From Candidatus Bathyarchaeota archaeon (lineage in GTDB: Archaea > Thermoproteota > Bathyarchaeia > Bathyarchaeales > Bathycorpusculaceae): 64,000 nt of DNA. Positions 9,801 through 52,607 of the stretch are shown piece by piece (position 1 is the stretch's first letter; each line of letters opens with the position of its first letter). Under the pieces are notes generated by a model, which was not told the origin of the DNA, did not search any database, and was given only the letters and a program-made list of their open reading frames with translations. The stretch lies in assembly GCA_026014485.1 (NCBI GenBank), contig JAOZIE010000023.1, positions 248,001 through 312,000 of the forward strand. The letters run 5' to 3'. The translations under genes and the position numbers were made by a program.

Positions 9801-10736
9801 ATGGAAAACTGGGATTTGATTATTATAGGTGCAGGCGCCGCTGGGTTGGCGGCTGGAATTTATGGCGCTCGAAGCGGACTAAAAACGCTTCTTCTGGACG
9901 AGAGAATGGCGGGGGGAACCGCGGCGGAGGCGCCTTTGGTGGAGAATTACCCTGGTTTTCCCCAAATAGTTGGCACTGAGCTTGCGGATAAGATGACTTT
10001 GCACTGTAAAAAAGCAGGCGCCGTCATCCATGATGTTGAACCCGTAGTCAGCATGGACTTGAAGGGGGAAACAAAAAAAGTGAAGACCGCCCGTGCAGAA
10101 TACGAAGCCACCGCAGTTATAATCGCCACGGGCGCCCACTACAACGAAATCGGCGTCAAAGGCGAAAAAGAGTTTCACGGCAGAGGCGTCAGCTACTGCG
10201 GCGTCTGTGATGGCCCCTTCTTCAAAGGGAAACATGTGATTGTTGTGGGCGGCGGTAACTCTGCATGTACAACCACGCTTTATTTGGCGGGCATCGCAGG
10301 GGAAATTACGCTTGTACACCGCCGAGGCTCTTTCCGCGCTGAAGAGGCCCTTGCCAAAGATGTTCTTTCAAAAACCAACGTGAAGGTGCTCTGGAACACG
10401 GCAATCCAAGAAATCAAAGGCGACAAAGTGGTCAAGGCAGTTGTTCTCTCCGATGTGAAAACTAACGAAACCAAAGAGTTGCCTGTGGACGCGGTTTTTG
10501 TCCAAGTCGGTGAATCTCCAAATAGCGCACTGGCGTTGGAGGCAGGTTTGGCACCCGAGGAAGGCGGCAAAAGCATCAAAATCGACATACACCAGCGAAC
10601 TAACATACCTGGCGTTTTTGCGGCAGGCGACGTGACAAACCACCCTGTCAGACAAGTGGGAACCGCCGTTGGTCAAGGTATCACGGCGTCGCTGGAAGCC
10701 TACAGCTACATCAAACGACCGTATTACCGTAAATAG
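9801..10736 (+). CDS. trxB: thioredoxin-disulfide reductase (TrxR/FAD)
   Basis: A 311-residue flavoprotein. The FAD-binding GxGxxG (IIGAGAAGLAAGIYGARSG, near 8-26) starts the protein. The redox CGVC sits near 134-137 in YCGVCDGPFFKGK. The pyridine-nucleotide domain has VVGGGNSACTTTLYLAG near 149-165, and GVFAAGDVTNHPVRQVGTAVG closes the FAD site. It reduces thioredoxin or a related carrier. Cofactor preference is not certain from sequence, since the usual HRR arginines for NADPH are present as HRRGSFR. Confidence 0.93.
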   Translation: MENWDLIIIGAGAAGLAAGIYGARSGLKTLLLDERMAGGTAAEAPLVENYPGFPQIVGTELADKMTLHCKKAGAVIHDVEPVVSMDLKGETKKVKTARAEYEATAVIIATGAHYNEIGVKGEKEFHGRGVSYCGVCDGPFFKGKHVIVVGGGNSACTTTLYLAGIAGEITLVHRRGSFRAEEALAKDVLSKTNVKVLWNTAIQEIKGDKVVKAVVLSDVKTNETKELPVDAVFVQVGESPNSALALEAGLAPEEGGKSIKIDIHQRTNIPGVFAAGDVTNHPVRQVGTAVGQGITASLEAYSYIKRPYYRK

Positions 10737-10952
10737 AGAGAAAACGTTACTTGTCCGAAAAAAAGAGACCCAACACAACAAGGATTGAACCAACGTGCAG
10801 GCGGCGTCGAATTCACAGTTCCCGTCCTATAAAACAAAACTAAACCTCAATCTGCCCGCCGACTGAAATCTAAGCTGCTGCTGGTGTAGCTTTGTTGACC
10901 CAAGAAATCTTACAAAACTGCTTTTACACGCAAGCATCCATCCCTTGATGAG

Positions 10953-10965
10953 AAATATAAATAAG
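10953..10965 (+). promoter_or_regulatory. TATA-like promoter of the hairpin array
   Basis: AAATATAAATAAG on the + strand, preceded by purines (GATGAG), resembles an archaeal BRE/TATA. A start about 26 bases downstream (near 10985) would fall just before the first 117-bp repeat at 11004. The box lies between the arms of an inverted repeat, AGCATCCA (10933-10940) and TGGATGCT (10973-10980), which could be a regulator site. Confidence 0.45.
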
Positions 10966-10984
10966 CACCCTGTGGATGCTATAA

Positions 10985-11351
10985 CATACTCCTATTTCCC
11001 GTCTCTTTTTGGTTTGCTGGGGTTCCTGCGGGGATGGAAATAACGTATGGAAAACAACACAAATCTCTATAGGAATGGTGCCCGTAGGAATCCTTTCAGC
11101 CTTTTTTCTCTTTCGTTGTTTCTTTTTGGTTTGCTGGGGTTCCTGCGGGGATGGAGAATAAATTATGGAAAACAAAACAAATCGCTATTGGAGGCAACCG
11201 TAGGAATCCTTTCAGCCCCTTTTCTCTTTCGTTGTTTCTTTTTGGTTTGCTGGGGTTCCTGCGGGAGATAAGATGTGACGCATACGGAAATGGAAAACCA
11301 TCAAAAGTCTTTATTCTGATGGTTCCGTAGGAATCCTTTCAGCCCTTTTTT
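10985..11351 (+). ncRNA. candidate structured RNA: three tandem hairpins with oligo-T tails
   Basis: In each repeat the left arm GGGTTCCTGCGG(G) pairs with the right arm (C)CCGTAGGAATCC: 11020-11032 with 11081-11093 (13 bp), 11137-11148 with 11198-11209 (12 bp), and 11253-11264 with 11325-11336 (12 bp). Two pairs in each stem are G.U on the + strand and would be A/C mismatches on the minus strand, so the + strand is the likely RNA. Copy 3 adds an inner 8-bp stem, AACCATCA (11296-11303) with TGATGGTT (11317-11324), stacked beside the outer right arm. Oligo-T runs at 11101-11107, about 11218-11223 and 11345-11351 follow each stem and may end transcripts. An upstream TATA-like box supports independent transcription. 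The function is unknown. Confidence 0.55.
11004..11351 (+). repeat. three tandem ~117-bp repeats
   Basis: Three copies start at 11004, 11121 and 11237 with TCTTTTTGGTTTGCTGGGGT and continue with TCCTGCGGG. Each ends with CGTAGGAATCCTTTCAGCC followed by an oligo-T run. The outer parts are nearly identical in all three. The middle 45-60 bases vary: copies 1 and 2 share ATGGAAAAC followed by an A-rich stretch and CTAT, while copy 3 keeps only ATGGAAAAC and has its own internal hairpin. They lie between the 3' ends of trxB and the convergent beta-propeller gene. There is no direct-repeat/unique-spacer pattern of a CRISPR. Confidence 0.9.
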
Positions 11352-11427
11352 GTGTCATTATTTTGCCTTCTTGGTTTGGTTGTTTTTTTAACCCTGAAAA
11401 AAAAGAAAAGGGTGGGAGTTTTTTTGC

Positions 11428-14769: not shown

Positions 14770-15609
14770 ATGTCTTCTCAAAACGAGAAAAGTATCCAAA
14801 CCTTGATGCGGCTGGGTCTAACCAACTATCAGGGACGAGTCTTCATGGCACTTGAGGTGCTGGGTACGTCTGTCATAAAAGAAATTTCCTTTTGGTCAGG
14901 GGTTCCGCGTTCAAAAGTGTACGAGGCATTAGACGGTCTAACCAAAATGGGCCTTGTTAACAAGGTGATAACGGCGCCAACAGCCTTTGAAGCAATTCCT
15001 CTTTGCGATGCGTTCTCTCTTTTGCTGGAAAGAAAAATAGAAGATTATCGAGATTTACGTGTAGAGACGTCCAGTATGCTAGATGATTTTAACCAAAAAC
15101 GTCTTAACAGCGAAAACAAGAAAACCTCGAATATCACTTTAATTTCTGACATTGGTTCAATTATTAGATTGACAAAAAGAAATATCGAAAGTACTGAAAC
15201 GAGAATAGATATGGTTGTTTCATGGAAGAAGTTCTTGCAAAGGTCACCGTTGTTATCCGAGGAGGTTTTTAGAGCATATAATAGGGGAGTAAGAATGCGA
15301 TTTGCAATTCAGAGACCAAATAACGAGGCTTCTCTTAAAGCAGGTATCAAGTCGGTTGGATTTCCAGATTCTATTGAGTACAGGTTCTTTCCTTTCACGC
15401 CTCCAGCAATGTGCACCCTGTTCGATAACAAACGTGTGAAGATTCCCACTGGTATAGAAAACGGAGCCAAACCCGTATCTGCCGTATTTACAGATAATGC
15501 CTGTTTTGTGAAAATCGCCAAAGCCTATTTTAATAGAATATGGACAACAAGCAAACCATATGACGAAAAGCCAAGACGTAATGACAAACCCTCACTTAAT
15601 ACAACTTGA
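14770..15609 (+). CDS. TrmB-family transcriptional regulator
   Basis: A 279-residue protein. An N-terminal winged helix of TrmB type spans about 8-75 (LMRLGLTNYQGRVFMALEVL, then SGVPRSKVYEALDGLTKMGL). A coiled-coil linker lies near 85-112, followed by a C-terminal PLD-like sugar/effector-sensing domain (about 118-265; DIGSIIRLTKRNIEST, then RMRFAIQR). TrmB proteins control sugar or surface-protein genes in archaea. It is divergent to the beta-propeller protein, its most likely target. Confidence 0.88.
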   Translation: MSSQNEKSIQTLMRLGLTNYQGRVFMALEVLGTSVIKEISFWSGVPRSKVYEALDGLTKMGLVNKVITAPTAFEAIPLCDAFSLLLERKIEDYRDLRVETSSMLDDFNQKRLNSENKKTSNITLISDIGSIIRLTKRNIESTETRIDMVVSWKKFLQRSPLLSEEVFRAYNRGVRMRFAIQRPNNEASLKAGIKSVGFPDSIEYRFFPFTPPAMCTLFDNKRVKIPTGIENGAKPVSAVFTDNACFVKIAKAYFNRIWTTSKPYDEKPRRNDKPSLNTT

Positions 15610-33779: not shown

Positions 33780-33887
33780 GCCGGGGTAGCCTAGCCTGGC
33801 TAGGGCGCCAGACTCATAATCTGGAGAACAAAGTGGCCAAGCGCCCATGTCCAGAAGTCGCGGGCTCGAATCCCGCCCCCGGCACCA
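33780..33887 (+). tRNA. elongator tRNA-Met (CAT) with a 30-nt non-canonical intron
   Basis: The acceptor GCCGGGG (33780-33786) pairs with CCCCGGC (33877-33883), followed by A and encoded CCA. The anticodon arm CCAGA-CTCATAA-TCTGG gives CAT and is uninterrupted. Thirty extra bases (33827-33856) fall after TCTGGAG, i.e. between positions 45 and 46 in the variable loop. The junctions form a bulge-helix-bulge: exon CTGG pairs with intron CCAG, bulges AGA and AAG flank it, and intron ACA pairs with TGT. Splicing gives the variable loop AGGTC and a normal T arm, GCGGG-CTCGAAT-CCCGC. Confidence 0.9.
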
Positions 33888-52256: not shown

Positions 52257-52325
52257 CCCTTCTTTTTTAAGGCCCTCACAGAAAAGTGGCTTGCAAAAGA
52301 TAAAAAGCGACTGAGTGGAATTTTG

Positions 52326-52607
52326 TCAAAGGGAACTGGTTTCTTCTTTTTCGTTTTTTTGTTTTTCAACCAGTTCGGCTTCAGCGAATTTTCTGCTTAT
52401 CCGAGTGATACGTAGTCTCACGTGGTCGCCGACTTTGGCTTGTGCAACGAAAACTACTAAGCCCTCTATACGGGCGATGCCTTCGCCGCGTTGGCTGGTT
52501 TCAGTTATGTCCACTTCGTATTCTTCGCCGACTTTAACGGGTTTAGGCGGAAACCTTCGTGGACCTAAAAAACCGCCCTCTTGCCTTCTACTAGAATCAT
52601 CTTCCAT
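52326..52607 (-). CDS. TRAM domain RNA-binding protein
   Basis: A 93-residue protein. The TRAM beta-barrel spans about 25-80: GEEYEVDITETSQRGEGIAR, then VVFVAQAKVGDHVRLRITRI, then KFAEAELVE. The charged C-terminal end (about 82-93) is Lys/Glu-rich. Small TRAM proteins are abundant RNA chaperones in archaea. ATG at 52607 has GAGGTGAT upstream; the frame continues a few codons to a TTG. It runs parallel to the OB-fold gene at 52676. Confidence 0.9.
   Translation of the reverse strand: MEDDSSRRQEGGFLGPRRFPPKPVKVGEEYEVDITETSQRGEGIARIEGLVVFVAQAKVGDHVRLRITRISRKFAEAELVEKQKNEKEETSSL

Follow-up and report, generated by a model that had tools for sequence, protein, structure and literature searches.

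A candidate bulge-helix-bulge element beyond the 3' ends of surface-protein genes in Bathyarchaeia

The window, which is the whole stretch of 64,000 nucleotides that was analysed, contains three tandem hairpin units at the 3' end of a surface-protein gene, and these are one local array of an element that is dispersed at other loci. The conserved base of its hairpin is not a terminator stem; when read on the minus strand, the strand of the surface-protein gene, it has the geometry, the handedness, and the leading A's of an archaeal bulge-helix-bulge (BHB) motif. As the best explanation overall, we favour with modest confidence a Bathyarchaeia-specific BHB element that lies beyond the 3' ends of surface-protein genes and acts on the gene strand. 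The features concerned are listed in Table 1.

Table 1 Features of the window discussed in the text, with predicted features marked as such.
Feature	Position	Strand	Basis
Thioredoxin-reductase-like gene (trxB in the earlier note), convergent with the surface gene	9801..10736	+	ORF
BHB element copy 1 (farthest from the surface gene)	11013..11107	-	
Predicted excised RNA of copy 1, 81 nt	11014..11094	-	inferred from BHB geometry
BHB element copy 2, outer helix GG:CC	11130..11223	-	
Predicted excised RNA of copy 2, 80 nt	11131..11210	-	inferred from BHB geometry
BHB element copy 3 (nearest the surface gene), extra inner stem, outer helix GG:CC	11246..11350	-	
Predicted excised RNA of copy 3, 91 nt	11247..11337	-	inferred from BHB geometry
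T-rich tract TTTTCTTTTTTTT (minus strand), lying past the stop codon of the surface gene and ahead of the elements	11397..11409	-	sequence
Surface-protein gene, 1059 aa	11428..14607	-	
tRNA-Met with a 30-nt intron (yardstick, outside the element)	33780..33887	+	Rfam, ARAGORN allowing introns

The three units have start-to-start spacings of 117 and 116, with near-identical arms and differing middles. The earlier note had described them as three tandem hairpins, and all three were present with the reported arms, GGGTTCCTGCGG and CCGTAGGAATCC, whose 12-bp pairing does include two G.U pairs when written as + strand RNA. The T runs after every unit, the TATA-like AAATATAAATAAG, the inverted repeat AGCATCCA/TGGATGCT, and an additional inner stem in copy 3 (AACCATCA...TGATGGTT) were likewise found in the sequence. 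Absent from that description was the GCTG/CAGC that lies beyond a 3-nt bulge in every unit. Folding of the single units on the + strand gave z-scores of -1.87, 0.18, and -1.30; these energies are unremarkable, so the reality of the structure has to be shown from homologues. The surface-protein gene next to the array encodes a signal peptide, a PQQ/BamB-type beta-propeller, a TEPT linker (Thr/Pro/Glu-rich), and a C-terminal transmembrane anchor. A TrmB-type regulator gene (window 14770-15609, + strand) is divergent from it.

A DNA search of the source genome indicated nine copies of the element, the three in the window and six at further places, and each of the six single copies was located just behind, and convergent with, a surface-protein gene. 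A covariance model built from the nine copies recovered the same nine and nothing else above noise in this genome, and picked up about 60 further copies elsewhere in the family. With a second model, built from 67 copies, the element was found in 41 of the 189 genomes of the class, at up to about 40 copies per genome. Apart from one weak match, all the element-bearing genomes of the class belonged to two families of one order, and no element was found in the other groups of the phylum sample, in which 397 genomes were searched. When 84,980 species, each represented by one genome, were searched with a strict pattern, the only matches were to MAGs designated Candidatus Bathyarchaeota or Crenarchaeota archaeon, and no viral contig was matched. 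Within the groups searched, the element was found only in Bathyarchaeia, almost wholly in one order. The curated models of Rfam 15 gave no match to it, the only hits being sub-threshold chance matches. A further match in the window, at 52303-52388 (R1; 22.2 bits), was taken as chance, since its sequence differs and no surface gene lies behind it.

A covariance-model search of Bathyarchaeia-like genomes had been suggested in the earlier note, and in the homologues found the stem is kept by compensating changes. In the 67-copy alignment, 85.4% of the pairing cells were paired, against 76% in shuffles. Double-change cells numbered 138 against a shuffle mean of 55.6, with none of the 500 shuffles as high, and double changes occurred at all 12 pairs of the main stem; slid partners were only 27-55% paired. 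Because the homologues covary, with double changes above those of the shuffles, the structure is not due to chance. Such strong conservation of the structure over divergent sequence argues for function.

By definition, the archaeal BHB motif is a 4-nt helix flanked by two 3-nt bulges (PMC7714728). In the RNA of a solved complex with the splicing endonuclease (EndA), GGUC-AAA and GACC-AUA, each bulge comes after the 3' end of the central strand (PMC12397907; strands as printed, our own reading). The base of the element consists of a 3-nt bulge, 4 bp (GCUG:CAGC), and a 3-nt bulge in all 67 aligned copies (anchored columns). The GCTG:CAGC is almost invariant and lies between the single-stranded triplets TTT and NyT, and although elements vary in length between about 84 and 132 nt, the base stays at exactly 3, 4, and 3 positions. 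Read on the minus strand, the two sides are GCUG-ARN and CAGC-AAA, and each of the two bulges begins with A in 65 of 67 copies. Only on this strand does a bulge come after the 3' end of each central-helix strand; on the + strand the order is reversed, bulge before helix strand, and the handedness is wrong for a BHB.

An unguided scan for the strict canonical BHB found the motif on the gene strand in 50 of 107 copies and on the other strand in 2 of 107, with 0 of 321 in shuffles and 3 of 185 in other 3' flanks as controls. When the scan was relaxed but A-first bulges were demanded, 81 of 107 copies matched on the gene strand versus 1 of 107 on the other (shuffles, 11 of 428). A loose-helix scan that dropped the A-first condition matched 96 of 107 copies on the gene strand, but also 129 of 428 shuffles. 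Most copies of the family appear to have two or more Watson-Crick pairs in both flanking helices (hBHBh'), and the motif was drawn in most of the minus-strand folds tried.

In copy 1 of the window, GCTG:CAGC lies between the bulges AAA and AAA on the minus strand, and its outer helix is one Watson-Crick pair plus A.C, compared with GG:CC in copies 2 and 3. On the minus strand, the window copies have an outer helix of 1-2 Watson-Crick pairs and an inner helix with two A.C mismatches, and are for this reason relaxed versions of the BHB. A wider set of motifs is tolerated by the heterodimeric (alpha-beta)2 enzymes, which occur chiefly in the TACK group (PMC7714728).

The window also offers a yardstick in its tRNA-Met, the intron of which has the bulges CTGG-AGA...CCAG-AAG (CUGG-AGA and CCAG-AAG in the RNA), with the same handedness as the element on the minus strand. 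By derivation, a cut after the second base of each bulge would restore a normal variable loop, AGGUC. This intron stands at an unusual place, the variable loop, with a relaxed BHB, and the tRNA was missed by ARAGORN at default settings. As for the enzymes, two PF01974 matches (EndA) were obtained in each of the six genomes tested, for example at C7:48603 and C11:133569 in G000, and RtcB (PF01139) was present in three of three. Genomes without the element also carry EndA, because tRNA splicing requires it. Judged from these sequence features, the element is probably a BHB substrate of the splicing endonuclease.

The earlier note had read the array differently, as + strand small RNAs with a promoter at 10953-10965, in which every unit would terminate at the oligo-T that follows it and the loops would select the targets. 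The TATA-like box and the T runs of the window agree with this, as do the two G.U pairs that each window unit has on the + strand and the resemblance of the + loop to a Shine-Dalgarno (SD) sequence plus ATG. At the other loci inspected, no + promoter is conserved and no + neighbour is constant. The upstream genes there show no preferred orientation, and in some cases the gene stops no more than 25 bp short of the element, which would hardly accommodate a conserved + promoter; the trxB-like gene is not a constant neighbour where neighbours were compared at other loci, and the TATA box and inverted repeat were not seen there by inspection. Also by inspection, many relatives have only a weak T tail behind the stem or none at all, which speaks against self-terminating units. 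The bulges lie on the wrong side for a BHB on the + strand, to which the strict scan gave only its 2 of 107 matches.

The wobble pairs point the same way. Although the window copies themselves lean to the + strand, 109 copies had 62 G.U pairs on the gene (minus) strand versus 37 on the + strand (p 0.015, the copies being related to one another), which lends weak support to the gene strand. Among the first 67 copies the numbers were about equal (43 on the gene strand and 33 on the + strand). A structure acting only as DNA was favoured while G.U and A.C were near equal in those 67 copies, and the larger set shifted this view. What stands of the earlier interpretation is a structured, covarying family with variable loops and compensating changes, and what does not is its strand, its promoter, and its self-termination. 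It was partly right, in seeing a structured RNA family, but probably had the wrong strand and the wrong kind of RNA; the + strand small-RNA model as such appears very unlikely.

The gene that does accompany the element is the convergent surface-protein gene, its constant neighbour. Most copies lie about 50 bp beyond the stop codon of, and convergent to, a gene for a PQQ-propeller surface protein with a C-terminal membrane anchor. In a complete genome (G005), a PQQ domain is found where expected, on the opposite strand, for 31 of the 39 copies, and at least two of the remaining eight also follow genes for anchored surface proteins; the picture was similar in other genomes. At three propeller loci checked, the element was absent. 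A few elements without a surface gene lie near genes resembling HTH regulators, as judged by sequence (L036, L037, L031, and L056). Propeller surface genes form large families in both G005 and another genome with about 40 copies (G006), with C-terminal anchors that are near-identical (TTTYIAI...LRRRK) and several of the genes in tandem (L093).

Of 83 loci, 80 have a T-tract that separates the stop codon from the element. It is probably the terminator of the gene, as is probable for the tract in the window, and the element would then be reached only by read-through, or its RNA be derived from the trailing transcript. Given this tract, the element may lie past the normal end of the mRNA. The same arrangement would also suit a bidirectional 3'-end element, namely a palindrome at which transcription between convergent genes is ended or blocked and which shields the surface gene from antisense transcription with no splicing. 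Such a palindrome would always be placed at the 3' end of the surface gene, with the T-tract between gene and element and often with T runs on the + side, and wobble pairs would be tolerated on both strands, all of which is seen. Such an element would not account for the handedness and invariance of the 3/4/3 base, nor for the conserved loop motif or the SD match, and the other neighbour is often not convergent. Hairpins are not known to be required for archaeal termination. On this evidence we regard a purely terminating or shielding role as unlikely.

Another explanation is a mobile or self-spreading DNA hairpin of the REP or MITE kind, or a BHB intron that spreads, the copies being homogenised in each genome and tolerated where they stand behind surface genes. 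Copies within a genome are about 80-93% identical over the element, their flanks do not align, and they are dispersed, sometimes in arrays, as in the window and at a locus of G005 (L206); moreover, contig ends fall at elements. For free insertion, a constant position and orientation behind one class of gene, across genera and two families, would be unexpected, and the conservation of structure over divergent sequence noted above argues for function here too. We therefore judge mere spreading to be quite improbable.

The arrays and contig ends may be described further. At L206 (1455-2234; G005:C1:1407954-1408733), three elements with spacings of 323 and 359 bp precede one surface gene, and the element scores fall toward that gene; at L212 (1194-1868), two elements spaced 565 bp apart do so. 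Arrays are recurrent, yet neither of these two has the 117-bp unit of the window. In G006 (C17, C26, C23, and C25), G042 (C122), and G002 (C145), contigs break off about 10-45 bp from an element, on the side of the surface gene, and the last 141 bp of G006 C17 and C26, from the element on, are identical. These ends suggest repeated or rearranging sequence at the junction.

REP/BIME and integron attC hairpins are, like the element, dispersed imperfect hairpins between genes. Sites of the attC type follow genes in a fixed orientation and have extrahelical bases. By inspection of the alignment, the element lacks the R''/R' core (RYYYAAC / GTTRRRY) and has the conserved ends GGGTTTGCTG and CAGCCCC, and an attC identity was rejected. 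Its dispersed loci and the BHB geometry of its base are further differences.

If the element is a BHB substrate, its use can be envisaged as follows. Transcription of the surface gene would run past the T-tract into the elements, where EndA would cut both 3-nt bulges after the second base of each. A hairpin RNA of 80-115 nt would be released, and RtcB would probably close it to a circle. With the cuts so placed, which is also how the ends of the predicted RNAs in Table 1 were set, the predicted junctions in the window are CCCCAGCAA|AGGATTCCTACGG for the circle and GGCTGAA|ACCAAAAAG for the exons. The excised RNA would present a pyrimidine-rich single-stranded part complementary to SD/start sequences (AGGAGA...AUGAAAAC), and would most likely pair with the ribosome-binding sites of the surface-protein mRNA family and lower their translation.

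The loop was compared with the starts of the surface genes, with start codons assigned automatically. For most family members the unpaired stretch is complementary to AGGAGA-N-AATGAAAAC, an SD sequence followed by a start, and the window copies retain mainly the ATGGAAAAC part. The surface genes of family f6 use sites of the GAAGG/AAGG type and the f6 loops carry GAAGGTGAAAAAATGAAAA; loop and SD sequence thus change together between families. Loop-to-start energies at the surface-gene starts were lower than for shuffled loops, and f6 loops fitted f6 starts (-16.25) better than other starts. Against other SD-bearing genes, the excess of loop/SD matching was significant in only one genome, G030 (p 0.002), with values of 0.06-0.20 in the others. 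A matching of each loop to the start of its own gene was rejected, as the energies (cognate -16.29 vs non-cognate -17.62) showed no own-gene preference. The antisense role at the SD sequence is the weakest step of the scheme, and even granting a BHB substrate we put it forward only tentatively, as somewhat short of an even chance.

Coding functions of the units did not hold either. A protein-coding reading (the FAGIPAG...VGILSAFL frame) is broken by copies of different length, and a small ORF from the SD-like ATG in the loop loses its ATG in many copies that keep the stem. An apical motif, GCTACTATC, is strongly conserved in f6 (the G030 elements, e.g. L136-L142), and it comes back in GCTACTGC-like form in many f1 elements.

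Archaeal tRNA introns, which the splicing endonuclease cuts and RtcB ligates, share with the element the 3-nt bulge, 4-bp helix, and 3-nt bulge, with the bulges 3' of the central strands and A first. The element differs in lying outside any tRNA or structural RNA, in many dispersed copies behind protein genes, and in having a conserved, covarying intron body with an SD-complementary loop. Beyond tRNA and rRNA, two archaeal mRNA contexts of BHB splicing are named, cbf5 and HVO_1309 (PMC7714728). The HVO_1309 intron, in the 5' UTR in Haloferax, is cut by EndA and was observed as a circle (PMC7714728). These also place a BHB in an mRNA-type transcript; they are single-gene cases in a coding region or 5' UTR, with cleavage seen for HVO_1309, whereas the element occurs at up to about 40 copies per genome in 3' flanks, with cleavage predicted only. 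The processing stems of pre-16S and pre-23S rRNA likewise undergo BHB excision and then give circular RNA (PMC7714728), but their product is much longer than that of the element, and no rRNA is located at the element.

Taken together, up to about 40 candidate BHB sites per genome stand behind one gene family, across two families of an uncultured archaeal class. In its most far-reaching form, the proposal is that this lineage uses the tRNA-splicing machinery for regulation: dozens of surface genes would release circular antisense RNA from their 3' flanks, which would pair with the SD/start regions of the family and set the surface proteins made. We hold this to be doubtful. If the sites are cut, they would constitute a natural series of EndA substrates and a new source of circular RNA, and possibly a family-wide control of surface proteins.
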